64,000 bases of DNA from Ruminococcus flavefaciens (GTDB taxonomy: Bacteria > Bacteroidota > Bacteroidia > Bacteroidales > P3). The notes below the pieces were generated by a model, which saw nothing but the letters and a program-made list of their open reading frames with translations, made no database searches and was not told the DNA's origin. This document shows positions 14,104 to 63,398 of this stretch, in pieces. The position numbers were made by a program, and so were the translations under genes. Where the stretch lies: assembly GCA_023667315.1 (NCBI GenBank), contig JAMPAI010000003.1, positions 124,001 through 188,000 of the forward strand, in the 5' to 3' direction. Within the stretch, counting starts at the first letter, position 1; the number at the start of each line of letters is the position of its first letter.

Positions 14104-16134
14104 TTAAAATTCCACCGTGAGCGACACCCGGTAGTTGCGTTTGGGCATCGGGTAGTTCAGGATCACGTCATAGTCCTGCCCCAGCAGGTTGTTCACTTCC
14201 ACCATCGCCTTAAGGCGTATCTTCTTGATGTTCCACGCGCCCGAAACGGAGAGGTCGTGGGTGTACCAGGGCTGGGTGTAGTTGTAGATGATGTTCTCCT
14301 GCTGGTTGTAGCGTTCACCCACGTAGATGAAGCTGTAGTTGAGCGCGTAGTTGCGCCACGAGAGCATGCCCACCACCGAGCCGCTGTGCCGGGGAATGTA
14401 GGGGATTTGGTCGCCGTAGTAGGTGTCGGAGGGGTCGGTCAGGTCGATGGCGGTCTGATAGGTATATTGCAGCTTGCCGGTAAGCGACCACTGGTGCGGG
14501 AATTGCAGGGTGAACTGCGCGTTGGCGTCCACCCCGTTTATCTTGACGCGCCCGAGGTTGAGCATCGTCCAGCGGAACTGCTGCCCCTTGGGATAGGCGA
14601 TGATTTTGTCTTTCACGCGGTTGTAGTAGTAGTCCACCTTGATTTCGAAACTGTGGAACACCTTGTCTTTGCGCTCGAGGTTGTAGGTGATGCCCACATC
14701 GTGCTGCACGGCCAGTTCGGGCTTGAGGTAGGCGTTGCCCATATCGGTGTAGTACAGGTCGTTGAAAGTGGGGTAGCGGTAGGCCTGCTTATAGAAGGCG
14801 TTGAGGGTGAGGCCGATTTTCCTGAATGGCTGGTAGGAGAGGAAAAGCCCCGGTGTCACCTTGTATTTCTTGGGCACGTCGTCCCGTCCGCGGGATTCCT
14901 CGTTGATGAAGGTTCCCAAAACAGAGGCCTGCACCTTGACGTGGCCGAAGAGGTCCATGGCCGTGGCCGCCGCCAGCCAGTGGGAGTTGCGGCTCACGTC
15001 GATGTATTCCTCCATGCCGTTCCACTGGAAGTCGTAGGAGAGCGACACATCCCACCACTTGAAGATCTCCACCTTGTTGGCCAGCGAGAGGTAGGCTTCG
15101 CGCTGCACGTAGATGTTGTCCACGTGAATCAGTTTGTCGTCGTTGTTCACGTAGCGGGTGTAGTCGTAGGCGTACTTGGCGTTGACGCGCAGGGTCCACA
15201 GGTCGAAGAACTTGTCTTGCAGCGAGGCCTGCACGAAAGTGTTCCTGTCCCAAAGGCGTTCCCCGCGCCGCCACACGTTGTTCACGATGGCGCCCGGCAC
15301 GCCGCGTTCGGAATTGTAGTAGTAGGCGTTGAATTTCCAGAAGCCGGTGTGGGAGTAGTAGTGGTTCAGACCCGCTTCCACGCGCACGGCGTTGATGTCG
15401 CCGTTCTGCCGCACGGCGGTGGTGTCGTAGGCCACCTGGCCCGAAGGGGTCACGCGGCGGTAGCGGAACTTGTACTTGCCGTTGGAGTTCAGCACTTCGG
15501 CGTTCATCGACACGTTGATCTTGTCGTTGATCTTGTACTCCATCAGCAGGGAAGGGTTCACAAGGGCGAAAGACCCGGCCTTCATGCCTGCCCGCAGGTG
15601 GAAGTTCTTGCCGTCCTCGAACTTGGGGCGGCGGCTGTTGAGGTAGATGCTGCCCGAGGAGCCGAATTCGCGCGCGCTTTGCAGGATGTCGCTTTTCTGC
15701 CCGTTGTAGAGCGCGATTTCGTCGATGTTCTCGAGCGAGAACTTGCCTAAGTCGATCTGTCCGTTCTGGGCGTTGCCCAGCTGGATGCCGTTGTAATACA
15801 CGCCCATCTGGTTGGTACCCATGCTGCGGATATTCACGGTCTTGACGCCGCCCACGCCGCCGTAGTCCTTGATCTGCACGCCGGAGAAAAAGCGGATGGC
15901 GTCGGCCACCGAAAGGCTGTTGAGGCGTTCCAAGGTCTTGCCTTCCAGTTTTTGAGGCGCGATGATTTCCTTGGAGGGTGCCTTGATGACCACCTCGTCC
16001 AGATAGTAGTGCCGGCTGATGCTGTCGTCGCCGGCAGGTTCGGAATGTATGCAAAAGCTCTTGGCCTGCACGGTCGGAACGACGGCAGGCAGACAGAGGG
16101 AAAACAGGATGTGTTGTTTCAGCTTTCGCAACAT
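14104..16134 (-). CDS. btuB: TonB-dependent outer-membrane receptor, probable cobalamin transporter (BtuB-like)
   Basis: A 676-residue receptor. After a signal peptide (LPAVVPTVQA region), the plug domain runs from about residue 45 with LDEVVIKAPSKEIIAPQKLE, VADAIRFFSGVQIKDYGGVG and NIRSMGTNQMGVYYNGIQLG. The rest is a beta-barrel ending in an aromatic residue (YRVSLTVEF), as outer-membrane proteins do. Length and the very short plug fit BtuB and not SusC-type receptors. The cobalamin riboswitch just upstream is strong independent evidence for corrinoid uptake. It is the first gene of a five-gene minus-strand locus. Confidence 0.87.
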   Translation of the reverse strand: MLRKLKQHILFSLCLPAVVPTVQAKSFCIHSEPAGDDSISRHYYLDEVVIKAPSKEIIAPQKLEGKTLERLNSLSVADAIRFFSGVQIKDYGGVGGVKTVNIRSMGTNQMGVYYNGIQLGNAQNGQIDLGKFSLENIDEIALYNGQKSDILQSAREFGSSGSIYLNSRRPKFEDGKNFHLRAGMKAGSFALVNPSLLMEYKINDKINVSMNAEVLNSNGKYKFRYRRVTPSGQVAYDTTAVRQNGDINAVRVEAGLNHYYSHTGFWKFNAYYYNSERGVPGAIVNNVWRRGERLWDRNTFVQASLQDKFFDLWTLRVNAKYAYDYTRYVNNDDKLIHVDNIYVQREAYLSLANKVEIFKWWDVSLSYDFQWNGMEEYIDVSRNSHWLAAATAMDLFGHVKVQASVLGTFINEESRGRDDVPKKYKVTPGLFLSYQPFRKIGLTLNAFYKQAYRYPTFNDLYYTDMGNAYLKPELAVQHDVGITYNLERKDKVFHSFEIKVDYYYNRVKDKIIAYPKGQQFRWTMLNLGRVKINGVDANAQFTLQFPHQWSLTGKLQYTYQTAIDLTDPSDTYYGDQIPYIPRHSGSVVGMLSWRNYALNYSFIYVGERYNQQENIIYNYTQPWYTHDLSVSGAWNIKKIRLKAMVEVNNLLGQDYDVILNYPMPKRNYRVSLTVEF

Positions 16135-52978: not shown

Positions 52979-53377
52979 ATGAAAAACAATCATAGAGTCC
53001 GTAAATGGGGCAAATGTGTTTCGTGCCTTGCCGGATTCGTGGCCTCCCTCGCCACGATAGCCGGGTTGGTGATTTCCGTGTGCGTTTTCCGGCAGACCCA
53101 GCGCATTCACGAGGAAACGCAGTTGCTCAACGAGAATATGCAGCGCACCGAATATATCCGGTATGCCCGCGAATGCCTCGACAGGTATTTGATGAAGCCA
53201 TGGCACGATATGGCCATCAAGACAAGCAATAATCTGAATGATTCGCTCCGTGCATGGGGTATGGAGCCGGATTCTACTTGCCATAACTATTTCAAGGCCA
53301 ACATTGAGGATGCCCGATATGCAGGAGAAGAGGACGATGAGCAAATATTGATGGACTGCATAAAGAAGTTACGATGA
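52979..53377 (+). CDS. Small membrane-anchored protein, function unknown
   Basis: A 132-residue protein with one N-terminal membrane helix (CLAGFVASLATIAGLVISVC) preceded by basic residues, then a soluble helical region rich in Glu, Arg and Asn (THEETQLLNENMQ-like heptads). The tail ends with several Asp/Glu (GEEDDEQ). It is the first gene of the operon and overlaps the next by 4 bases (ATGA). I do not recognise the family; the antisense ORF here is a shadow. Confidence 0.65.
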   Translation: MKNNHRVRKWGKCVSCLAGFVASLATIAGLVISVCVFRQTQRIHEETQLLNENMQRTEYIRYARECLDRYLMKPWHDMAIKTSNNLNDSLRAWGMEPDSTCHNYFKANIEDARYAGEEDDEQILMDCIKKLR

Positions 53378-54132
53378 AAAAGATTCTGTTACAACTTTTG
53401 TTCGCGCTATTCATGTCTTGCTTCAGTATGGTCTATGGACAAGTCAATGAAAACCGTAGGATTTGCCATAAAGCCGTGAAAGCGGCAGATAGCGGGAACT
53501 TCTTTAAGGCAAAAAAACTGTTCGACCGCTGTTTTTCCCAATGCCCGGAATGTAGGGCTTTCTATTTTACTCGAAAACAGCAGTGTGACAGTATCGTGTC
53601 AAGGTATGAACGCCTAGAGGATTCTAAAACCGATAAGAAAAAAGTGCGGGGAGATCTTTATGTGAAAACAGATACTATAATCAATTATAGGCTTGACACG
53701 GTGTATCAAAAGGAAACAGTCATAGACACGCACTATCTCTTGCGGACGGATACCATGAAATACACCAACAACAAAAACTACCTCCACCCCTTCTTTATCA
53801 AGACGGGCAAGGTAAAGAAAAGCGTGTGGTACGGCACGGTAAACGGCGTGGGGGCGGCGGCCCTGGCCGGCAGCATCGCCCTCGGCATACAGGCGCAGAA
53901 CAGTTACCGGAAACACAACACTTATGCGGCCGACACCCGTCAGGACCACCGGCACTACTACCGGCAGTACCGCATCTACACCGGGGCGATGTGGGGCTGT
54001 ATCGGGCTGGCGGTGGCGGCCTTCGCCTCCAACTTCCTGGCCGTGCAGGTAAGCGACGAGGTAAGGATCATTCCCGGCGTGGCGGTGGACATGCAGGGCA
54101 ACCCGCAGGCCTCGCTGAACATTCGTTTCTAA
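53374..54132 (+). CDS. Exported protein with two C-terminal membrane-type helices, function unknown
   Basis: A 252-residue protein with a signal peptide (LLQLLFALFMSCFSMVYG). The periplasmic N-terminal part is helical with several Cys (HKAVKAADSGNFFKAKKLFD, then CFSQCPECRAF), reminiscent of a TPR-like unit, and is followed by repeated Thr/Asp/Tyr strands. Near the C-terminus two hydrophobic segments occur (GVGAAALAGSIALGIQ, GAMWGCIGLAVAAFASNF). GC rises sharply around 53780, near the boundary between these two parts, which hints at a mosaic gene. Function unknown. Confidence 0.65.
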   Translation: MKKILLQLLFALFMSCFSMVYGQVNENRRICHKAVKAADSGNFFKAKKLFDRCFSQCPECRAFYFTRKQQCDSIVSRYERLEDSKTDKKKVRGDLYVKTDTIINYRLDTVYQKETVIDTHYLLRTDTMKYTNNKNYLHPFFIKTGKVKKSVWYGTVNGVGAAALAGSIALGIQAQNSYRKHNTYAADTRQDHRHYYRQYRIYTGAMWGCIGLAVAAFASNFLAVQVSDEVRIIPGVAVDMQGNPQASLNIRF

Positions 54133-54148
54133 CCTAAAGACAGCCAGG

Positions 54149-54502
54149 ATGAAACGCTATATAAAACACAGTCTGACGGCGATGCTCGCGATGTGCTGTT
54201 GCACCGCCTGCCTTAAGGAAGAGAAGCCCTTTATGTACGAACTGCGCGTGTTCGTTACCTACGAAGACGGAACGCCCGTTCCCGACGCCGAGGTGTCGCT
54301 GTCGTACAACAAGCCGGGACAGGACGACTTTCCGTGCACCCGTCTGCCGGAAGGCCTCTATGTGTTTTCCTCCCTGCGTATGGAGGGCACCTACCAGGTG
54401 CGGGCGCACAAGAGCGGCAACGAATACAGAGACGATTCCCGAAACGTTACTCTGAGCGAATTCAAGGTGGAGACGGTGGAACTGAAACTGATACGGCGGT
54501 GA
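54149..54502 (+). CDS. Small lipoprotein with carboxypeptidase-regulatory-like domain
   Basis: A 117-residue lipoprotein (lipobox CCTAC). The mature part is a single beta-sandwich of the carboxypeptidase regulatory-like kind: YELRVFVTYEDGTPVPDAEV, then LPEGLYVFSSLRMEGTYQV and a closing VETVELKLIRR. Such domains often act as structural modules on the cell surface. The gene stop is 5 bases before the next ATG. No enzymatic motif is seen. Confidence 0.7.
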   Translation: MKRYIKHSLTAMLAMCCCTACLKEEKPFMYELRVFVTYEDGTPVPDAEVSLSYNKPGQDDFPCTRLPEGLYVFSSLRMEGTYQVRAHKSGNEYRDDSRNVTLSEFKVETVELKLIRR

Positions 54503-54507
54503 AAATC

Positions 54508-55524
54508 ATGAAAAGGTTCTGTTGCATATGTGTTCTTTATCTGTGTTGCACTTTCTGCCTGTATGCGCAGACCGGATGTGTCTATGGCAAGGTGTTGGAT
54601 TTCCATACCGCCGAGCTCCTGCCGCATGTGGGGGTTAGCTTACTTTACAACGGTCGCGTGGAGGGAAGGGTTTTTACGGATGAACAGGGAACGTATTCCC
54701 TACGAGTCGAAAGAAACAAGATGTATCAATTGCGGTTCGACAAAGCGGAATACGGAGTGGTTACGGAAGACCTTTACGTGGAGGGGGCGGACTCCCTGCA
54801 GCGGGATGCCATCATCGGCAGACCCATGGACATGCTCCGTATCACGGAAGTGGGAAACAAGGATAAGGAAGTGGACAGGATAGACGTGGGGGCGTTGGAG
54901 TCCCCGGCCTCGTATTACGTCCAGCTTTTCAACGGCGGCGGGGAAGCACTGGAATACAGCATAGGGAGTGTGCAGGAATGGATAACGGAGATAATACCGG
55001 CCTCGGGTGTTCTCAAACCCAACGGCAACCCCGAATTCTTTACGATAAAGATAGACCCGAAAAAGTTCGAGGCGGGAAAGACAACAGGAAAAATACTGAT
55101 AAAGACCAATTTCGGAAGCAAGATACTCACGGTGACGGCCGTGGGGAAATTTCCGACACTGACGGTGTTGCCGCCTATAACGCGAGGAACAGACGATCCG
55201 GATAATTTATTTCCAGATACATTCATAGCGGAAATTGAATTTTTGGGAAGACATACCTTTGAGAAAATGGGCTATTGCTTTGCCGAAAATGACTCCCTGC
55301 CTACGATTAATGACAATGTGGTCTATGTAAACGATTTAGGGGATTATTCTTTCTATTCACACTATTCGGAAACACCGCTTCCATGGCTTACGATGGAGGG
55401 CGGTTGGGTTCCTTGCCAGACATTTTACATCAGGGCGTTTCTTGTGTACAACAACGAAAACAAGGTTGTGCACTATAGCAAAAATGTGCAAAAAATTACC
55501 TTATGGGACATACTTTGCCAATAA
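54508..55524 (+). CDS. Exported protein with CarboxypepD-like and BACON-like domains (paralog A)
   Basis: A 338-residue exported protein. Signal peptide MKRFCCICVLYLCCTFCLYA is followed by a carboxypeptidase-regulatory-like domain (VYGKVLDFHTAELLPHVGVS, DEQGTYSLRVERNKMYQL). A BACON-like Ig domain comes next (YYVQLFNGGGEALEYSIGSV, WITEIIPASGVLKPNGNPE, IKIDPKKFEAGKTTGKI), then a third domain with FIAEIEFLGRHTFEKMGYCF. The start at 54508 matches the signal peptide; an upstream frame without a signal is ignored. It overlaps the next gene by 22 bases. It is the most complete of three tandem paralogs. BACON domains often bind carbohydrate or mucin, but the ligand here is unknown. Confidence 0.7.
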   Translation: MKRFCCICVLYLCCTFCLYAQTGCVYGKVLDFHTAELLPHVGVSLLYNGRVEGRVFTDEQGTYSLRVERNKMYQLRFDKAEYGVVTEDLYVEGADSLQRDAIIGRPMDMLRITEVGNKDKEVDRIDVGALESPASYYVQLFNGGGEALEYSIGSVQEWITEIIPASGVLKPNGNPEFFTIKIDPKKFEAGKTTGKILIKTNFGSKILTVTAVGKFPTLTVLPPITRGTDDPDNLFPDTFIAEIEFLGRHTFEKMGYCFAENDSLPTINDNVVYVNDLGDYSFYSHYSETPLPWLTMEGGWVPCQTFYIRAFLVYNNENKVVHYSKNVQKITLWDILCQ

Positions 55525-56294
55525 AGGGAGTGGCGATTCTTGCCATGCTCGCGCTTGCCCTGTTGGTGGGTTGCCACCACGGGGAGGGGGAGGACAAGGT
55601 CGGGGCGGATACGGAAAACGTTCCGGAGGAGGGATCCTTTGTTCTGCAAGGCACCTTGCGCACCCCGAAGCTGCACAACGAACGGGCTGTGTTCCGTGTG
55701 CAACTGGTAAAGGGAGACAGAACGGGCGAGAGGCATCAGGAGGGATCCGTCCATCCGGAGGCCTGGATACAGGCGGTGAGGAACGGGCAGGGTTTCGAAT
55801 TCGATGGATTGACGTCGGGGGACTACACCCTTGTCGCGACAAGGGAAGGCTACACGGAGGTTTTGGCAAAAGTAAGCATGGGATGGTGGCAAGTTTACCT
55901 TAAGGACATAATCATGTATCCCGTGGAGGATGATGGCGAAGAATTCCGTATTCTGGATGAGGAGGGCAAAGAGAAGAAATGCATCGAACTTATACCCTTT
56001 GCCACCCAATCTATAATTTTTTATCTCTACAACGCCACCGCAAGCGATATGCCGTATAATTTAAGTCATTATATGGGCAGCGGTAGTAATATGCGTTCGT
56101 TTATCATAAACGGGAAAGTGGAAAGGGTTTATTCCGATTGGGTTAAGGAAATAAATCCGAGGTCGGGGATATTGCCCCCCCATATCCTGCAGCCGATAGA
56201 AATCCGGATAGACCCCACCATATATTTGGTTAACGGGCATAGCAAATGCAACATACTCGTTAATCATCGAGGGGTATTGGAGTTGTCTTTCTAA
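55503..56294 (+). CDS. Lipoprotein with BACON-like domain (paralog B)
   Basis: A 263-residue lipoprotein with lipobox LLVGC. A CarboxypepD-like domain (GFEFDGLTSGDYTLVATREG) precedes a BACON-like domain whose sequence parallels its neighbours: FYLYNATASDMPYNLSHYMG, WVKEINPRSGILPPHILQPI, IEIRIDPTIYLVNGHSKCNI. The repeated pattern W-x-x-x-I-x-P-x-S-G-I-L in all three proteins shows they are duplicates. Its start overlaps paralog A by 22 bases. Confidence 0.7.
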   Translation: MGHTLPIKGVAILAMLALALLVGCHHGEGEDKVGADTENVPEEGSFVLQGTLRTPKLHNERAVFRVQLVKGDRTGERHQEGSVHPEAWIQAVRNGQGFEFDGLTSGDYTLVATREGYTEVLAKVSMGWWQVYLKDIIMYPVEDDGEEFRILDEEGKEKKCIELIPFATQSIIFYLYNATASDMPYNLSHYMGSGSNMRSFIINGKVERVYSDWVKEINPRSGILPPHILQPIEIRIDPTIYLVNGHSKCNILVNHRGVLELSF

Positions 56295-56309
56295 TTAAAA
56301 TCAACGGAT

Positions 56310-57044
56310 ATGAAATTGTTTTTGTTGAAACTGATTTGCTTTTCCTCTTTGTGTTGTTTTTCTGTTGCGTGTAAAGAAGAAACAGGCAAAGATAAGGATA
56401 GACGGTTCAATGACACCCATGGGTGTATAAGGGGAACGGTAACATTTTTCAATACGGGAGAGGTAACCGATGCCTACGTGCGCTTGCTGCTGCCCGGCAC
56501 CCAGACCGCCATCTACAGTTGTCTGATCAACCGTACGGGAAACTATAGAATTGATGATGTTGACACGGGGCACTATGAGATAAGGATATTCAAGCAAGGC
56601 TTTATCGATACCGTGTTTCCCGGTCTGGTCTATATACTGCCGAAGTCGTTGACCGATGGGGAATGCTGGCGGATGGACTGCGCCATTTCTATGCTGCCGC
56701 CCCGTATGAACTTGCTGGAAGTAAACTCGAATATCCCGCTGGACACATTGGATTTCGGCACAACGGACACAAAGCTGTACTTCCGTATCTACAACGGTAG
56801 CGGGCACACCTGCACGTGGACTTCGGATTTCGAGGATGTGAAACTTCAAAACAATTGGCTTAAATCCATTGACCCTCCGTCAGGAATCCTGAAGCCCAAC
56901 GAAACAGGCCTCGTCGGTATAGAGATAGACAGAAGCATTGTTGGAAATCCCGGCTTTGCAAGCGGCCATAAAGCTGCGAAGTTCCTGATACGGTCGGATA
57001 ACAGCGGAGGCTGTGTACTGACGGTCTTGGCCGAAATTGAGTGA
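56310..57044 (+). CDS. Lipoprotein with CarboxypepD-like and BACON-like domains (paralog C)
   Basis: A 244-residue lipoprotein (signal MKLFLLKLICFSSLCCFSVAC). The first domain reads CIRGTVTFFNTGEVTDAYVR with NRTGNYRIDDVDTGHYEIRI, a CarboxypepD-like fold. The second is BACON-like: LYFRIYNGSGHTCTWTSDF, WLKSIDPPSGILKPNETGLV, IEIDRSIVGNPGFASGHKAA. It is the last of the three duplicates and lies 50 bases before the diversified SUMF1 gene, so the surface lipoproteins may present or pair with that protein. Confidence 0.7.
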   Translation: MKLFLLKLICFSSLCCFSVACKEETGKDKDRRFNDTHGCIRGTVTFFNTGEVTDAYVRLLLPGTQTAIYSCLINRTGNYRIDDVDTGHYEIRIFKQGFIDTVFPGLVYILPKSLTDGECWRMDCAISMLPPRMNLLEVNSNIPLDTLDFGTTDTKLYFRIYNGSGHTCTWTSDFEDVKLQNNWLKSIDPPSGILKPNETGLVGIEIDRSIVGNPGFASGHKAAKFLIRSDNSGGCVLTVLAEIE

Positions 57045-57094
57045 GTTTGTTAAAACGAATTAAATAATAATCAACCAAATAAATATCAAAAACA

Positions 57095-58090
57095 ATGGAC
57101 AGAACAAAACTAAGATGGCTTTTGCCGTTACTATTCCTGCCGTTCTTCCAGCAGGTGGTCGCCCAGACGGAACGGGTGGAGACAGACACCGCCCGCTGGA
57201 CGTGGACGGCGGATGCAGGAGAAGAAAAGACATTTACGTTTGAGGTGTCGAGAATAGGGAAGTATGTGGTGGATTGGGGCGATGGTGAAACGGACGAATA
57301 TTCGGGCGGTTCGGGCTTGGCGGTTGCACCCCTGCATACCTACGCCGCTGCCGGAAGTTATAAGGTTTTGATATTTACGGAACTCCTGGAAAATTTTACC
57401 GAAACGGCCTTAGGCATGAACTTGGAGATGGTGTATGTAGAAGGCGGCACTTTCCAGATGGGGGCCACTGAGGAGCAGGGCAGCGATGCAGGAGATTCCG
57501 AAAAGCCGGTGCGCACCGTCAAGCTGGATTCCTACCACATCGGCAGGTACGAGGTGACCCAGGCACAGTGGAAGGCGGTGATGGGAACGAACCCTTCGAA
57601 ATTCTCGGGCAGCAATCTTCCTGTGGAACAGGTAAGTTGGGAAGAAGCACAGGCGTTTTGTGAAAAGTTGAGCGCGTTGACCGGAAAGAATTATGTATTG
57701 CCTACCGAGGCGCAGTGGGAGTATGCCGCCCGAGGAGGAAATAAAAGCGCGGGGTATAAATATGCCGGCAGCAACGACCTTGACGAAGTGGGGTGGTATG
57801 GAGCCAACAGCCAAAAGAGCACCCACCCAGTAGGCATGAAGAAGGCCAATGAATTGGGCATCTACGATATGAGTGGCAATGTAGAAGAATGGTGTTCGGA
57901 CTGGCATGCCGATTCGTATGATGAAAATGATACAGACAACCCTGCCGGTCCCGCTAGTGGGGCGTTCCGCGTGAGGCGTGGTGGCAGCTGGGACGGCGTT
58001 GCCTGGTACTGCCGGGTGTCGTACCGGTACTTCGGCCTTCCCGGCGGCCGGAGCAGCGGCCTGGGCTTCCGCGTTGCCCTGCTTCCCTAG
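57095..58090 (+). CDS. SUMF1/C-type-lectin-fold exported protein with DGR-like variable C-terminus
   Basis: A 331-residue exported protein (signal ending FQQVVAQ). After a PKD-like domain (YVVDWGDGETDEYSGGSG) comes a formylglycine-generating-enzyme-type (SUMF1) fold: VYVEGGTFQMGATEEQGSD, HIGRYEVTQAQWKAVMG, YVLPTEAQWEYAARGG, ELGIYDMSGNVEEWCSDW and VRRGGSW. In characterised DGR targets this fold carries the variable region at its end. Residues 300-322 here fit that scheme: the variable codons all end in C or T, as expected if AAY codons of a template were mutated at A. Whether it is enzymatic is doubtful; ligand binding is likelier. No lipobox or T9SS domain is seen. Confidence 0.82.
   Translation: MDRTKLRWLLPLLFLPFFQQVVAQTERVETDTARWTWTADAGEEKTFTFEVSRIGKYVVDWGDGETDEYSGGSGLAVAPLHTYAAAGSYKVLIFTELLENFTETALGMNLEMVYVEGGTFQMGATEEQGSDAGDSEKPVRTVKLDSYHIGRYEVTQAQWKAVMGTNPSKFSGSNLPVEQVSWEEAQAFCEKLSALTGKNYVLPTEAQWEYAARGGNKSAGYKYAGSNDLDEVGWYGANSQKSTHPVGMKKANELGIYDMSGNVEEWCSDWHADSYDENDTDNPAGPASGAFRVRRGGSWDGVAWYCRVSYRYFGLPGGRSSGLGFRVALLP
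57989..58060 (+). other. Candidate DGR variable region
   Basis: The codons after GGS-Trp are GAC GGC GTT, then GCC TGG TAC TGC CGG GTG TCG, then TAC CGG TAC TTC GGC CTT, then CCC GGC GGC CGG AGC AGC GGC. Fourteen of these (Asp, Gly, Val, Tyr, Tyr, Tyr, Phe, Gly, Leu, Gly, Gly, Ser, Ser, Gly) are NNC or NNT and sit where DGR-type FGE-fold proteins usually have AAC/AAT-derived residues. The framing residues Cys-Arg-Val-Ser, Arg, Pro, Arg and the end Leu-Gly-Phe-Arg are those normally kept invariant. Confidence 0.6.
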
Positions 58091-58124
58091 TTTATTCGGA
58101 AAATCCGGCCTAAGCTGAGAAGAA

Positions 58125-58183
58125 GCCGTCCGTGCAGCCTTGGCGGTAGCCCGCGAAGTGGCTCCGCCAAGCGGGCGGACGGC
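58125..58183 (+). other. Three-tier hairpin downstream of the variable region
   Basis: GCCGTCCG/CGGACGGC (58125-58132, 58176-58183), CTTGGCGG/CCGCCAAG (58139-58146, 58164-58171) and AGCC/GGCT (58148-58151, 58160-58163) nest inside each other. No T-tract follows, so it is not a typical terminator. It starts 34 bases after the stop codon of the candidate DGR target. Confidence 0.7.
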
Positions 58184-58210
58184 GGTAAAAACATAAATAC
58201 AAACAACAAA

Positions 58211-60211
58211 ATGAAGAAGATAAGATATATGCTTTGCCTGCTGTCGACCTGCCTGTGCGGTGCGTTCTCGATGGCGGCGAATTCGTACAACGGGGCGCAA
58301 TCCCCCAAAGACAATCCTGCGCTTGAATTGCGCATCAAGACCCTGAATATCGCTTCGCGCGGAGTAACAGACTTAGACATAAGCGGCTGCGGCGGCTTGG
58401 AATTGCTGGACTGCTGTAGAAACCAGATTCCGCTGCCGGTGCTTTACAAGGCGGTTTCGCACCGTAAGGCCGGGAGCGTGTTCATGCTCAGTCCGCAGCG
58501 GATGCCGGAAACGGTGTCGTTGATACAGGACGAAGCGATAGACCTGAACCCGTTCCTGGCTCAGACAGTGGCGGGCACGGAACCGGATGTGGAGGTGTTG
58601 GACCTGTTCGACCAGCCCGTGCCGGCCTACCGCTACACCTATAGGGACGGCCGTCTCAGCTTTCAGGCCAACGGCGAGTATCATGTAACGCTGAGCCACC
58701 CGCAGGTGCCCGACTATGCGCAAGGAACGGAAGGCGAACCGGCAAGGCTGCTCTTGAACGTAAGCGTAAGGCCGGCCGAGGCCACGATTACGTATTTCGA
58801 CTGCAGCGGCGCGGAGACGGCGAACAACGGCGTATCGGCCCTGGATGTGCGCAACTGCACGGCCCTGAATGGCCTGGATTGCCGTTACAACGAACTGGAC
58901 AGCATAAGGCTGGCTACCGCCTCGCCGGTTCAGGAACTGCACGCGGAGCACAACCGCATCAGGCTCATGGACGTGTTCACCCTGTTGGGCACGCGCGGAC
59001 GCAGGGCGGCCTACTATTTTAACCCGCAGTCCGCCAGGGAGGTGCGTCTGCTTGACATCGACGAGGAACTGGATCTGAAATCCGAATTCACCATCGACAA
59101 CAACGCCTCAGACTGCCGGGTGTACGACACCCTGGGAGAGGCGGTGTCCGAAGACCTGTATTCGGTGCGGAACGGCATGGTGTCGTTCTTCGCTCCGGGC
59201 GTTTACCTGCTGGAACTGAGCAACCGGGCGGTAACCGACTATATCCGGGGCGGTTCGGCGGGCACGGCCGTAAGGTACACCTACAGGATAAAGGTCGGGG
59301 GCGATGCCGCCGCGGTGTACACGGTGAGCGTGCGTTCGGAGAACACCTCCAAGGGCACGGTTACGGGGGGCGGCACGTATCAGGAGGGCGACTACGCCAC
59401 CGTTACGGCCACGGCCAACAGCGGCTATGTGTTCGACCGTTGGGAAAACAAGGGTTCATTCTACAGCGACCAGCGGAACCTCGGTTTCTATGTGGACAAG
59501 GACTACGACCTTACCGCCTACTTCAGGAATAACGAAACCCGTGAGGAATTCACGGTGAGCGTGCGTTCGGAAAACACTTCCCGGGGCACGGTTACGGGGG
59601 GCGGCACGTACAAGGAGGGCGAGTATGCCACCGTTACGGCCACGGCCAAGCCGGGCTATGCGTTCGCCCGTTGGGAAAACAACGGCGTCCATTACAGCGG
59701 CGAACGTAGCATAGGCTTCTATGTTTACGAAGACTACGACCTTACCGCCTACTTCAAGAGCAACGAAACCCAGGAGGAATACACGGTGAGCGTGCGTTCG
59801 GAAAACACCTCCAAGGGCACAGTTACGGGGGGCGGCACGTATCAAGAGGGCGAGTATGCCACCGTTACGGCCACGGCCAAGAGCGGCTATGTGTTCGACC
59901 GCTGGGAAAACAACGGCTCGTATTACAGCGGCGAGCGCAGCCTCGGCTTCTATGTCTATGACGACTACGACCTTACCGCCTACTTCCGGCAGTCGGGCGT
60001 GGGCAACGAGGAAGCGGACGGTATGAACGGCATCCAGGTATATGCCAAAGACCGGGTGATCTGCCTCTCGGAAGAGGCGGGCGAAATAGAGGTGTTCACC
60101 GCTGCCGGACAGCGGGTGTATGCGGGTACCGCCACCCGTATTCCGGTGCGGGCGCAAGGGGTGTATGTGGTGCGTGTCGGCACCGAATGCCGCAAGGTGA
60201 TGGTTCTTTAA
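58211..60211 (+). CDS. T9SS-type surface protein with LRR-like units and three InlB B-repeats
   Basis: A 666-residue exported protein (signal MLCLLSTCLCGAFSMAA). Two short leucine-rich-like segments (RIKTLNIASRGVTDLDISGC and VSALDVRNCTALNGLDCRYN) are interleaved with Ig-like parts. Three tandem 77-residue repeats of the divergent InlB B-repeat type follow (residues 371-601), each beginning YTVSVRSENTS or FTVSVRSENTS and containing FDRWEN-like or FARWEN-like sequence. The last 60 residues (IQVYAKDRVICLSEEAGEIE through RKVMVL) look like a type A T9SS sorting domain, though the usual P-N-P start is absent. Adhesion is a reasonable guess from the domain types. Confidence 0.78.
   Translation: MKKIRYMLCLLSTCLCGAFSMAANSYNGAQSPKDNPALELRIKTLNIASRGVTDLDISGCGGLELLDCCRNQIPLPVLYKAVSHRKAGSVFMLSPQRMPETVSLIQDEAIDLNPFLAQTVAGTEPDVEVLDLFDQPVPAYRYTYRDGRLSFQANGEYHVTLSHPQVPDYAQGTEGEPARLLLNVSVRPAEATITYFDCSGAETANNGVSALDVRNCTALNGLDCRYNELDSIRLATASPVQELHAEHNRIRLMDVFTLLGTRGRRAAYYFNPQSAREVRLLDIDEELDLKSEFTIDNNASDCRVYDTLGEAVSEDLYSVRNGMVSFFAPGVYLLELSNRAVTDYIRGGSAGTAVRYTYRIKVGGDAAAVYTVSVRSENTSKGTVTGGGTYQEGDYATVTATANSGYVFDRWENKGSFYSDQRNLGFYVDKDYDLTAYFRNNETREEFTVSVRSENTSRGTVTGGGTYKEGEYATVTATAKPGYAFARWENNGVHYSGERSIGFYVYEDYDLTAYFKSNETQEEYTVSVRSENTSKGTVTGGGTYQEGEYATVTATAKSGYVFDRWENNGSYYSGERSLGFYVYDDYDLTAYFRQSGVGNEEADGMNGIQVYAKDRVICLSEEAGEIEVFTAAGQRVYAGTATRIPVRAQGVYVVRVGTECRKVMVL
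59321..60013 (+). repeat. Three tandem 231-base repeats coding InlB-type repeats
   Basis: Units begin at 59321, 59552 and 59783 with ACGGTGAGCGTGCGTTCGGA. They are 231 bases (77 codons) each and keep long runs of identical DNA, so recombination could change the copy number without a frameshift. Confidence 0.9.
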
Positions 60212-60232
60212 TAATCAATCAAAAACAAGACA

Positions 60233-61297
60233 ATGAAAAAGATAATGTTGATAATGGCCTGCTGGCTGCTGCCGGCGGCTTTGGGAATGAAGTTGCATGC
60301 CGCCGAACCGGCCACGGGCACCGACGGCATTCGGGCCACGGATGATGCGGTGCTGATGTCCTGGCAGGTAAAACAGGGCGAGACCAAGACCTTCTCGTTC
60401 CGCGGGGCGGTGGGCGCCACCTACCGCATTGCCTGGGGCGACGGCGATACGGTTACCGTGATGGGGCGCGGGGAGGATTCCACGCTCAGGATGAGCCACC
60501 GCTACATCAAGGGCAACACCTATACCGTGAGCCTCTACGGGGAACGGGACTACAACTACAGCTACAACTACACGGAAACGGCCCTGGGCATGGAGATGAA
60601 GATGGTGTATGTGGGAAGCGGCACCTTCCTTATGGGCTGCACCCTGGATAACGTAAGCGCCTGCAACGCCAACGAACGTCCCGCCCATCGGGTGAGCCTG
60701 ACCTCTTTCGGCATCGGGATGTACGAGGTAACGCAGTCGCAGTGGGAAAAGGTGATGGGCACCACCATACAGCAGCAGCGCGACAAGTATGCGTCCAGTG
60801 CCTCGCTTCAGGGCAATGGCGCGGACTACCCGATGTACTACGTAAGCTGGGAGGACGCGCAGGCGTTCTGCGAAAAGCTGAGTGTGGCCAGCGGCAAGCG
60901 CTATGCCCTGCCCACCGAGGCGCAGTGGGAGTATGCGGCGCGGGGCGCCCGCAAGAGCGTAAACAAGACCTACAGCGGCAGCAACACGGTGGACGGGGTG
61001 GCCTGGTACACATCCAATGGTGGCAGTTCCGCCCATACGGTGGGCGGCAAGACGCCGAACGAACTGGGCATCCACGACATGAGCGGCAATGTATGGGAAT
61101 GGTGCGCGGACTGGTATGGAACTTACGATGAAACGATGAACGACAACCCCGCGGGCCCTGCCACCGGCACCCAGCGGGTGGCGCGCGGCGGCTCGCGTTC
61201 CTCCAGCGCCAACGATTGCCGCGTGTCGTTCCGCACCAGTTTCAAGGCCACGGAGGCGGGCAACCTGATAGGCTTCCGCGTGGTCTGCCTGCCATAG
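60233..61297 (+). CDS. SUMF1-fold exported protein, not diversified (paralog)
   Basis: A 354-residue exported protein (signal LIMACWLLPAALGMKLHA). Like the gene at 57095 it has a PKD-like domain (YRIAWGDGDTVTVMGRGED) before a SUMF1 fold: VYVGSGTFLMGCTLDNVSA, GIGMYEVTQSQWEKVMGTT, RYALPTEAQWEYAARGARKS, ELGIHDMSGNVWEWCADWYG and VARGGSR. Its end (SANDCRVSFRTSFKATEAGN) lacks the pyrimidine-ending codon pattern, and a Ser/Arg stretch replaces the usual Trp after GGS. It may be the fixed partner or ancestor of the diversified paralog. It is the last gene of the operon, with a terminator 22 bases after the stop. Confidence 0.82.
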   Translation: MKKIMLIMACWLLPAALGMKLHAAEPATGTDGIRATDDAVLMSWQVKQGETKTFSFRGAVGATYRIAWGDGDTVTVMGRGEDSTLRMSHRYIKGNTYTVSLYGERDYNYSYNYTETALGMEMKMVYVGSGTFLMGCTLDNVSACNANERPAHRVSLTSFGIGMYEVTQSQWEKVMGTTIQQQRDKYASSASLQGNGADYPMYYVSWEDAQAFCEKLSVASGKRYALPTEAQWEYAARGARKSVNKTYSGSNTVDGVAWYTSNGGSSAHTVGGKTPNELGIHDMSGNVWEWCADWYGTYDETMNDNPAGPATGTQRVARGGSRSSSANDCRVSFRTSFKATEAGNLIGFRVVCLP

Positions 61298-61318
61298 TTT
61301 AATTTCCTCCTAAAACCC

Positions 61319-61360
61319 AGCGCAGGAGAGTAGGCCCGGCCTATTCCCCTGCGCTTTTTT
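61319..61360 (+). terminator. Terminator of the exported-protein operon
   Basis: AGCGCAGG (61319-61326) pairs with CCTGCGCT (61348-61355), enclosing a second GC-rich stem, and is followed by six T. It ends the operon that begins at 52919. Confidence 0.85.
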
Positions 61361-61597
61361 GTTCCTTTTCAAGGCACCTTTTCTCGCCATGGCCATCTGA
61401 AAACAAGTTTTCGATGGCTCATTTGGCTTAACGAAAACGTTCCTTTTCAAGGCACGTTTTTGCGCCACGGCATAGCTCGAGCGAGCTCGGCTTTGCCCGT
61501 TTGGCTGAATCAAAACGTTGGTTTTCAACCGACCTTTTTTACGCCTCGGCAGAGTCCAAGTGAACTTGGCTTCTGCTCTCGGCTAAGTTAAACGTTC
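61361..61597. repeat. Tandem 78-base units with sequence-variable but conserved hairpins
   Basis: Units start at 61361, 61439 and 61517 (a partial fourth at 61594), each opening GTT and a TTC-loop mini-hairpin (CCTT-TTC-AAGG in two units, GGTT-TTC-AACC in the third). Each then has a 12-base-pair hairpin with a bulged T at the same point and a 2-base loop. The apical stems are GAAAAC/GTTTTC, CGAGC/GCTCG and CCAAGT/ACTTGG, so the stem is kept while its sequence changes. The 78-base period also leaves a minus-strand frame open, but I do not call it a gene. Confidence 0.8.
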
Positions 61598-62626
61598 CTA
61601 TTTCGGTTTGCTGTTTCCGTCCATGGCTTTTCGTACGTTGTTCACCTCTTCAATCAGTTGGGTCTGCGTGGGCAGGTACAGACGGTATTCGTTCGCCCAG
61701 ATGGTCTTGTTGTCCTCGGGAAGGGTCATCCTTACCGCCGTGTCGTTCTTGGCCGTTCCCAGCAGGATGCCTATTGTGGGGCCTTCATCGGGCAATTTTT
61801 CGCACCGGTCGTAATAGTTCACATACATCTGCAACTGCCACAGGTCTTGGTGCGTCAGCTTTCCCGACTTCAGTTCCATCACTAAGAAACACCGCAAAAG
61901 ACGGTTGTAGAGCACAAGGTCGATAAAGAACTCGTCATCCTCAAGCAGTATCCTTTTCTGTCGCGCCACGAAAGAGAATCCGTTGCCCATTTCGAGCAGG
62001 AAATCCGCAAGGTGAGTTATGATGGCGCTTTCGAGATCCTTTTCGTAAAAGGCGGCCTTGCGTTCCAGTCCCAGGAATTCCAATACCATAGGCTCCTTGA
62101 TGATTTCCTGCGGGCTTTGCGGAATGCGCTCCTTGCGCGCCACGGCCAGCACAGCCTCCTTGTCGTTGCTGAGAAGCAGTCGCTCGTAGAGTTGGGAATT
62201 GATCTGCCGTTCGGTTTCCCTTGCCGTCCAACCGTTATTGACGGATTCCAACTCGTAATATTTGCGTTTGTCGGGGTCGGAAATGGAAATGAGCATCTTG
62301 TATTGCGACCAGTTCAATTGCGTCCGCAGTGCGGACGCAATTGGATAAAGCCTGTAGAATTGCCGACTTCTCTCTAATTGTCTCACGGTAAACCCGCTTC
62401 CGTATTCGGGTTCCAAGGTTTTGGCAAGGTTCCTTATGAGGTATGAACCGTAATCGGCACGTTCCTTGCCCGCTTGCTCTTCGTCGAATATCCGTCGCCC
62501 GATATTCCAATACATCTGCACGCGGCAGAAATCGACGCTCCGCACGGCATTCCGTCGGGCTGTATCGATAATGCGTTTTATATCATCCAAGAAAACATCT
62601 TTCGGAATGATTGCACTTTTTTTCAT
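61598..62626 (-). CDS. DUF1016 (YhcG-type) PDDEXK nuclease-domain protein
   Basis: A 342-residue protein. The N-terminal domain (VQMYWNIGRRIFDEEQAGKE, LSAKL-like helices, SRQFYRLYPIASALRTQLNW, ISDPDKRKYYELESV) and the C-terminal nuclease domain match DUF1016. The PD-(D/E)xK site is likely in ILLEDDEFFIDLVLYNRLLR with the downstream ELKSGKLTHQDL Lys. Proteins of this family occur with restriction and defence islands and may help process Holliday junctions or invading DNA; the exact role is unsettled. It stands alone here, next to an ORF6N gene. Confidence 0.88.
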   Translation of the reverse strand: MKKSAIIPKDVFLDDIKRIIDTARRNAVRSVDFCRVQMYWNIGRRIFDEEQAGKERADYGSYLIRNLAKTLEPEYGSGFTVRQLERSRQFYRLYPIASALRTQLNWSQYKMLISISDPDKRKYYELESVNNGWTARETERQINSQLYERLLLSNDKEAVLAVARKERIPQSPQEIIKEPMVLEFLGLERKAAFYEKDLESAIITHLADFLLEMGNGFSFVARQKRILLEDDEFFIDLVLYNRLLRCFLVMELKSGKLTHQDLWQLQMYVNYYDRCEKLPDEGPTIGILLGTAKNDTAVRMTLPEDNKTIWANEYRLYLPTQTQLIEEVNNVRKAMDGNSKPK

Positions 62627-62671
62627 CGTATCTTTTTATGGTGTTTTGGCAATGCCGCTTTTCAGGCTTGC

Positions 62672-63398
62672 CTATATAAAGAATGTCCGAATACAGATTT
62701 TTATACGAACGCCACTCAGACTATTCCACCGTGTCGGGGCGGTCGGGTTCCTTTCGGCGTTTGACGGTGTATTTCAGTTTGCCGATGAAGAAGTTGACTT
62801 CAATCTCGGCCGCAGCCTCGTAGGGTTGCAGGTCGGGCATCACTATATCGGAGAGGGTTTCTCCGAAGCGTTGAATCATGGTTTTTTGTTCTTGAGGCGC
62901 GACATCGCCGTTCTGTAGCGTGTTCTGCATAGAGAGAAGTTCTTGTTTCAAAGACCTAACCTTAGCAAAGGTCTCCACGATAAGCAAGGTGGCCTGCGTG
63001 GCGGTCGGGCTTTTCAAGATGGTGGCCAGCATGTAGAGGCCTTTTTCGGTGAAAGCGTGGGGCATTACGGGGGAAAATTTTAGGGAGGAAAGGTGGTCGA
63101 AATTTTCGACCACCTCCTGTTTTTCAGTAGATTGTAGGTCGAAAACATATCCTTTTGGAAATTTTTCGGGGTTATTCCTCACCGCTTCGTTAATGCGTTT
63201 GGTCTCCACCCCGTAGATGGTGGCCACATCGACGTCCAAAAGGACATATTGCCCTCGAAGGGGGATGATTTTGTCTTGAATGTTGAAGACGGGGAGCGGG
63301 TTGTTGATCTTTTTCATATGTTTGATTTTTCTTAATTCCGGTGGTCGACTCTCGCACACCGGGGTTACTATATAAAGAATGCCCGAATACGGATTTTA
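62672..63398 (+). repeat. Pair of ~31-base direct repeats flanking the ORF6N gene
   Basis: CTATATAAAGAATG-T/C-CCGAATAC-A/G-GATTTTT/A occurs at 62672-62702 and 63368-63398, with three mismatches in about 31 bases. The copies lie 696 bases apart on either side of the ORF6N gene. They may be duplicated boundaries of an inserted segment or two members of a dispersed repeat. Confidence 0.65.
62721..63317 (-). CDS. ORF6N (KilA-N-type) DNA-binding domain protein
   Basis: A 198-residue protein. The N-terminal ORF6N domain is clear: KIIPLRGQYVLLDVDVATIY, ETKRINEAVRNNPEKFPKGY, then ENFDHLSSLKFSPVMPHAF and TEKGLYMLATILKSPTATQA. The C-terminal half is a long coiled coil (KVRSLKQELLSMQNTLQNG). ORF6N proteins are phage- and island-associated and bind DNA; regulation is a plausible role. 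The ATG at 63317 is chosen because the upstream start (63359) adds residues outside the domain. It is flanked by short direct repeats. Confidence 0.87.
   Translation of the reverse strand: MKKINNPLPVFNIQDKIIPLRGQYVLLDVDVATIYGVETKRINEAVRNNPEKFPKGYVFDLQSTEKQEVVENFDHLSSLKFSPVMPHAFTEKGLYMLATILKSPTATQATLLIVETFAKVRSLKQELLSMQNTLQNGDVAPQEQKTMIQRFGETLSDIVMPDLQPYEAAAEIEVNFFIGKLKYTVKRRKEPDRPDTVE

Follow-up and report, generated by a model that had tools for sequence, protein, structure and literature searches.

The gene at 57095–58090 (plus strand) of the window, the 64,000-nucleotide stretch of DNA analysed here, ends in a run of codons that looks diversified, which raises the question of whether a diversity-generating retroelement (DGR) has rewritten it and where such a retroelement might reside. 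The gene encodes a TvpA-like protein of 331 residues, whose start resembles, by eye, a signal peptide. Residues 1–94 form a low-confidence N-terminal part, and an FGE/C-type-lectin (CLec)-fold domain spans approximately residues 97–331; the FGE-sulfatase assignment rests on the fold and on PF03781 membership. An earlier note on this DNA had called the product a SUMF1/C-type-lectin-fold protein, which agrees with the PF03781 match and with the nearest solved structure and best structural relative, TvpA, the target of the Treponema denticola DGR (PDB 2y3c). The TvpA tail aligns gap-free with the product across the variable region (VR), which sits at the 3' end of the gene. Judged from sequence comparison, the C-terminus is very probably the VR of a TvpA-type DGR target, and we regard the gene as a real orphan DGR target, of the kind already described in T. 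denticola.

The VR comprises 31 codons (57980–58072, plus strand), running from GGSW to GFR and delimited by a gap-free alignment to template repeats (TRs) of the family with adenine-biased differences. Within it, the hypervariable codons of residues 300–322 (57992–58060, plus strand) stand out by their C/T-ending codons, codon-position pattern and adenine bias. The fourteen C/T-ending codons noted earlier (D300, G301, V302, Y305, Y310, Y312, F313, G314, L315, G317, G318, S320, S321 and G322) are all present, flanked and interspersed by GGSW, CRVS and LGFR as described. This set was chosen after the fact, and the test was hence made on positions fixed by other sequences. All seven GGSW-type family TRs have AAY at 11 of the 14 codons, the exceptions being V302, L315 and G317, and each of these 11 TR-defined codons ends in C or T in the window VR. 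C/T-ending codons make up a fraction of 0.45 in the remainder of the gene and 0.57 across 39 long open reading frames of the window, some of them spurious; by our arithmetic from these two shares, 11 out of 11 would arise by chance with a probability of ~2e-4 to 2e-3. Across the seven TRs, V302 corresponds to Asn or Asp (AAY or GAY) and L315 to Asn in the L128 TR only; G317, where none of the seven has Asn, is unlikely to vary. The proposal that residues 300–322 have been diversified is upheld more strongly by the adenine-bias and codon-position tests, although G317 probably does not belong among the variable codons. W304 (TGG) could derive from an AGG codon in the template.

The conserved 3' end of the VR, CTGGGCTTCCGCGTTGCCCTGCTTCCCTAG (58061–58090, plus strand), may be an IMH-like end, and part of it is retained in two scars, at G000:C5:58–95 in the assembly that contains the window and at L147 8377–8413. 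A strong inverted repeat (58125–58183, plus strand; DNA fold z −3.87, none of 200 shuffles as stable) begins 34 bases past the stop codon of the target gene, and may be a target hairpin or cruciform, or a terminator. For BPP-1, an inverted repeat after the VR is described as a requirement (PMC3240598).

The adenine test uses TRs of eight relatives of the same family, not a TR from the genome itself. Between the window VR and these eight TRs, 21–25 of 28–32 template adenines (75–78%) and 10–23 of 61–65 non-A bases (16–36%) differ, so that the differences are adenine-biased in every case (Fisher p 1e-8 to 6e-4). Against the L128 TR, 23 of 30 template adenines and 11 of 63 other bases differ, ten of the 11 at third codon positions; against the L134 TR, the non-A differences number 10 in 62, nine of them at third positions. 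Such third-position changes outside template adenines are as expected between genera. The non-A difference of the window VR, 0.24, is the lowest among 33 genus tails compared without gaps, a procedure that misaligns tails of other length; SUMF1-like tails lacking the RGG motif were left out, and the 33 are fewer than the target-search matches. A second FGE-fold paralog in the window (60233–61297, plus strand), intended as a control, carries at its C-terminus (61187–61279) a weak, perhaps decayed, TR match: tested against the same eight TRs it gives p values of 0.008 to 0.37, leans weakly to template A (0.66 vs 0.42) and retains at most a weak trace of TR matching.

Relative to the G008 copy L072_4111, the 26 codons of the VR core differ 12/8/1 at codon positions 1, 2 and 3 and the 199 codons of the FGE body 37/29/88. 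The third-position contrast, 1/26 vs 88/199 (Fisher p 2e-5, uncorrected), is the most extreme of 32 pairwise comparisons; VR-core third-position differences are at most 6 in 14 of them and at least 9 in the other 18, which we interpret as paralogs whose templates were different ones or have decayed, with no recent template shared with the window gene. In other genus members this pattern is more pronounced. Two copies from G001, 96.7% identical over 540 bases of the body, differ in 18 of 93 VR bases, distributed 9/9/0 over codon positions 1, 2 and 3. Among the 22 most similar genus pairs, VR third-position differences are 0 in three, at most 3 in nine and 5 to 22 in the rest, the high counts stemming partly from the ungapped comparison of tails of unequal length.

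Cassettes that carry both an RT and an HRDC gene occur in the family and, within the genus, in G012. A protein search with the reverse transcriptase (RT) of genus genome G012 matched 44 of 190 family genomes (E up to 0.01), not all necessarily with DGR RTs, and the best 11 beyond G012 were examined (L125–L135). In all 11, an RT and an HRDC relative accompany a TvpA-like target; the L125 contig runs out there and includes just the VR end of its target. By motif, ten of these loci yielded a TR peptide with the pattern GGSWNNN...NRNNN.GFR, GGSWNNNAKNCRVSNRNNNTPDNRNNNNGFR being an example; the L127 TR was located by the repeat finder only. In the TR/VR pairs reported for L125, L127–L130 and L132–L135, every mismatch falls at a template A, a share that is partly a product of selection, since the finder keeps only pairs above an adenine share of 0.85 (0.8 for contig C66, described below). 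It returned no pairs in L126, L131 and 15 further loci. Together with the G012 cassette, these loci resemble the window gene in their 31-codon VR/TR, peptide pattern and TvpA-like targets; they differ in carrying RT and HRDC genes, and also a TR except in G012, none of which was found here. The G012 cassette (G012:C40; L071 1–2660) has the order target (frameshifted), HRDC gene, RT and a gene that we take to be dnaQ-like; no TR was found on this contig. The contigs that carry the 12 cassette RTs have a median length of 14 kb, with six of the 12 measuring at most 12 kb, values that stand without a control for contigs generally. Strong target matches are present in 11 of 13 genus genomes, G005 and G010 having weak ones only (E 4e-16 and 3e-18), and a matching RT was found in a single one, G012, being absent from the results for the other 12. 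The target search of G000 gave 17 FGE-type matches, some GldK-type or confined to the N-terminal part.

The mutator was sought throughout G000, an assembly of 2.93 Mb that is 98.9% complete and 4.98% contaminated. A search with PF00078 (RVT_1) returned one RT, on contig C66, and the HRDC accessory protein of G012 was not found at E up to 0.1. No cognate TR was recovered in G000 by BLASTN with the VR or by TR-pattern searches; BLASTN at E up to 10 yielded the VR itself, a paralog on C44, the 38-base stretch C5:58–95 and 12 noise-like matches. Neither of the genome-wide searches, for RT and for HRDC, had a match within the window, in keeping with the earlier observation that it holds no RT or TR, and TR-type searches met there only the VR itself, the 60233–61297 paralog and short chance matches. 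The earlier note had further supposed that the system acts in trans from elsewhere in the genome and had called for a genome-wide search for a DGR RT and a matching template. An RT did come to light, on C66 with its own TR and VR; the matching template did not, and with no matching TR, cognate RT or HRDC gene found, action from elsewhere in this genome finds no support. The lack of both a retroelement and a template copy had been named as one half of a refutation, and for the cognate system neither was found in G000; this does not refute past diversification, because RT-less leftovers are known, as recounted for T. denticola (PMC4891356).

The C66 retroelement is a DGR in its own right, located on a phage-like contig (G000:C66, approximately 123200–125357; L081), with a TR near L081 14448 and, where the contig ends, a VR near 15301. 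The two differ by nine mismatches in 50 bases, all nine at a template A, seen as T in the strand that was read. Its RT shares PHROG 1423 with the G012 RT at 30% identity. The G+C content of C66 is 44–47% vs 53–55% in measured chromosomal stretches, so the contig may come from a phage or from contamination.

Wider searches gave the following. The TR pattern matched in four of the 13 genus genomes with no TR among the matches: three were taken as unrelated (by eye; the constant VR codons are absent) and the fourth was the G012 VR itself. A family-wide TR pattern matched in 7 of 190 genomes and not in G000, and the match in G011 is a VR rather than a TR. A TR-like 32-mer with three mismatches lies at G192:C24:30407–30438 (L277, L363); the surrounding 10 kb yielded no RT, TR or target. 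Among viral contigs, TGCCGGGTGTCGAACCGGAAC matched three loci, antisense in Mu-like phage genes (by eye) and judged unrelated, and a second TR-like exact pattern had no match. Two viral contigs encode a relative of the target (42–49% identity), and 160 confirmed relatives of the G012 RT are present in such contigs, the 80 retained among the 160 being at 25–38% identity. Matches of the G012 RT to plasmids amount to at least 5000 records, all below 60% identity, two of the best being annotated beside avd, and the target matched 23 phage records, again all below 60% identity.

The reading that we favour starts from a DGR core of the kind seen in the cassettes, made up of a target with its VR, an HRDC accessory gene, an RT and a TR, which would have reverse-transcribed a template with AAY codons. 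The adenines would have been randomised during copying, and the cDNA would then have replaced the 3' end of the target gene. In TvpA, the variable residues are the ligand-binding loops of the C-type-lectin fold, and the altered residues here would correspond to these loops, with a presumed role in ligand binding. We infer this mechanism, the ligand-binding role and the fate of the core, which would have been lost from the lineage or lie on an element absent from the assembly; of these two, loss is given somewhat more weight.

A related explanation holds that the core is present in the organism but outside the assembly, on a short, repeat-flanked or mobile contig that escaped binning, and acts in trans on this gene and other scattered targets; we consider it somewhat unlikely. 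Evidence for it comes from other members of the genus, in which VRs have been rewritten recently and the RT was not found. A G001/G002 pair differs 11/9/0 in the VR, with 63 of 175 third positions differing in the body, and a G011/G002 pair 7/12/0, with 67 of 175; the zero third-position differences in both VRs imply rewriting after the lineages split, in genomes without an RT found. The short contigs of the cassette RTs (median 14 kb), an RT not found in 12 of 13 genomes, and a probable IS-end repeat at nine contig ends of G000 also favour a core missing from the assembly. Against it, the assembly is 98.9% complete, the searches of its contigs yielded no template-like TR, the two exact TR-like patterns gave three spurious-looking matches and none, respectively, in viral contigs, and the dnaQ-like site in G000 is a scar, not a cassette.

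Extended to the genus, the same thought would have a core off the stable chromosome, mobile or often gained and lost, serve scattered TvpA-like targets in trans, a proposal that we make tentatively and hold to be unlikely. It draws on the targets in 11 of 13 genomes, on marks of recent rewriting in some of them (copies from G000, G001, G002, G008, G009, G011 and G012), and on a matching mutator found in one of 13. The cores would either have been lost repeatedly or reside on DNA that these assemblies miss. If the core is mobile, a single element could give adaptive diversification to many hosts.

The orphan-target reading that we prefer has precedents. The T. denticola DGR is alike in its FGE/CLec-fold protein, VR at the 3' end, HRDC-type gene and several dispersed targets, and targets are reported to be retained in T. 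denticola isolates without RT and TR (PMC4891356). It differs in that it also varies lysine codons, as described there (PMC4891356), whereas template codons here are mainly AAY; moreover, the host here is Bacteroidales-type and the TR is known only from relatives. Cyanobacterial DGRs likewise have CLec targets far from the RT with transposase genes nearby, but those remote targets are assigned in that account to DGRs of the same genome, unlike here (PMC7517822). The scale is less usual, with recent VR rewriting in several species and a matching RT in one of 13 genomes. RT-centred DGR surveys overlook orphan targets such as this one; one such survey notes that DGRs on remote targets would escape its approach (PMC8144416). 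In this genus, most genomes retain these surface-type proteins, some of them recently rewritten, while the mutator is seldom found alongside.

The two scars named above stand without a gene. The dnaQ-like genes of G000 and G012, a name that we assume for both (L071/L017), share 91.6% identity over 83 bases and 71% over 58 residues. In G000, the site then holds only a ~40-bp VR/TR 3' end, followed by a 53-base repeat (G000:C5:1–53) that recurs at the ends of C7, C55, C3, C88, C8, C2, C87 and C13; it is probably an IS end, and no transposase was seen at it. In the sister genome G008, the stretch is 92.8% identical up to the repeat border and then carries a different open reading frame. The C5 fragment could be what is left of a TR, but the resemblance to a scar in G008 makes the 3' end of a deleted target equally possible. 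The G008 scar, L147 8377–8413, is a gene-less VR 3' end adjoining what is presumably an ORF6N-like gene.

A cause without any retroelement, either ordinary diversifying selection or gene conversion between paralogous copies, is very improbable, although several FGE-type paralogs exist and the locus turns over quickly. Window positions 53261–57045 are 97.3% identical to G008, whereas in 57046–62996 the target genes differ from G008:C19 (L147) in number and sequence (71–76% identity), and the target genes at this locus appear to be replaced much faster than those beside them. Selection on loops would neither freeze third positions (1/26 vs 88/199 relative to the G008 copy) nor favour template-A sites, and gene conversion would copy the variable codons, yet these differ between the tails compared. 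That the C66 RT diversifies the gene in trans is scarcely credible: it is DGR-type, like the G012 RT, but is equipped with a different TR and VR of its own, and BLASTN of the window VR at E up to 10 had no C66 match.

Two other features lie near the target. Between the FGE paralogs, 58211–60211 encodes a protein with three divergent InlB B-repeat (PF18998) stretches, and at about 61366–61604 of the window a short dispersed repeat is partially matched at many places in G003, G008 and G012.
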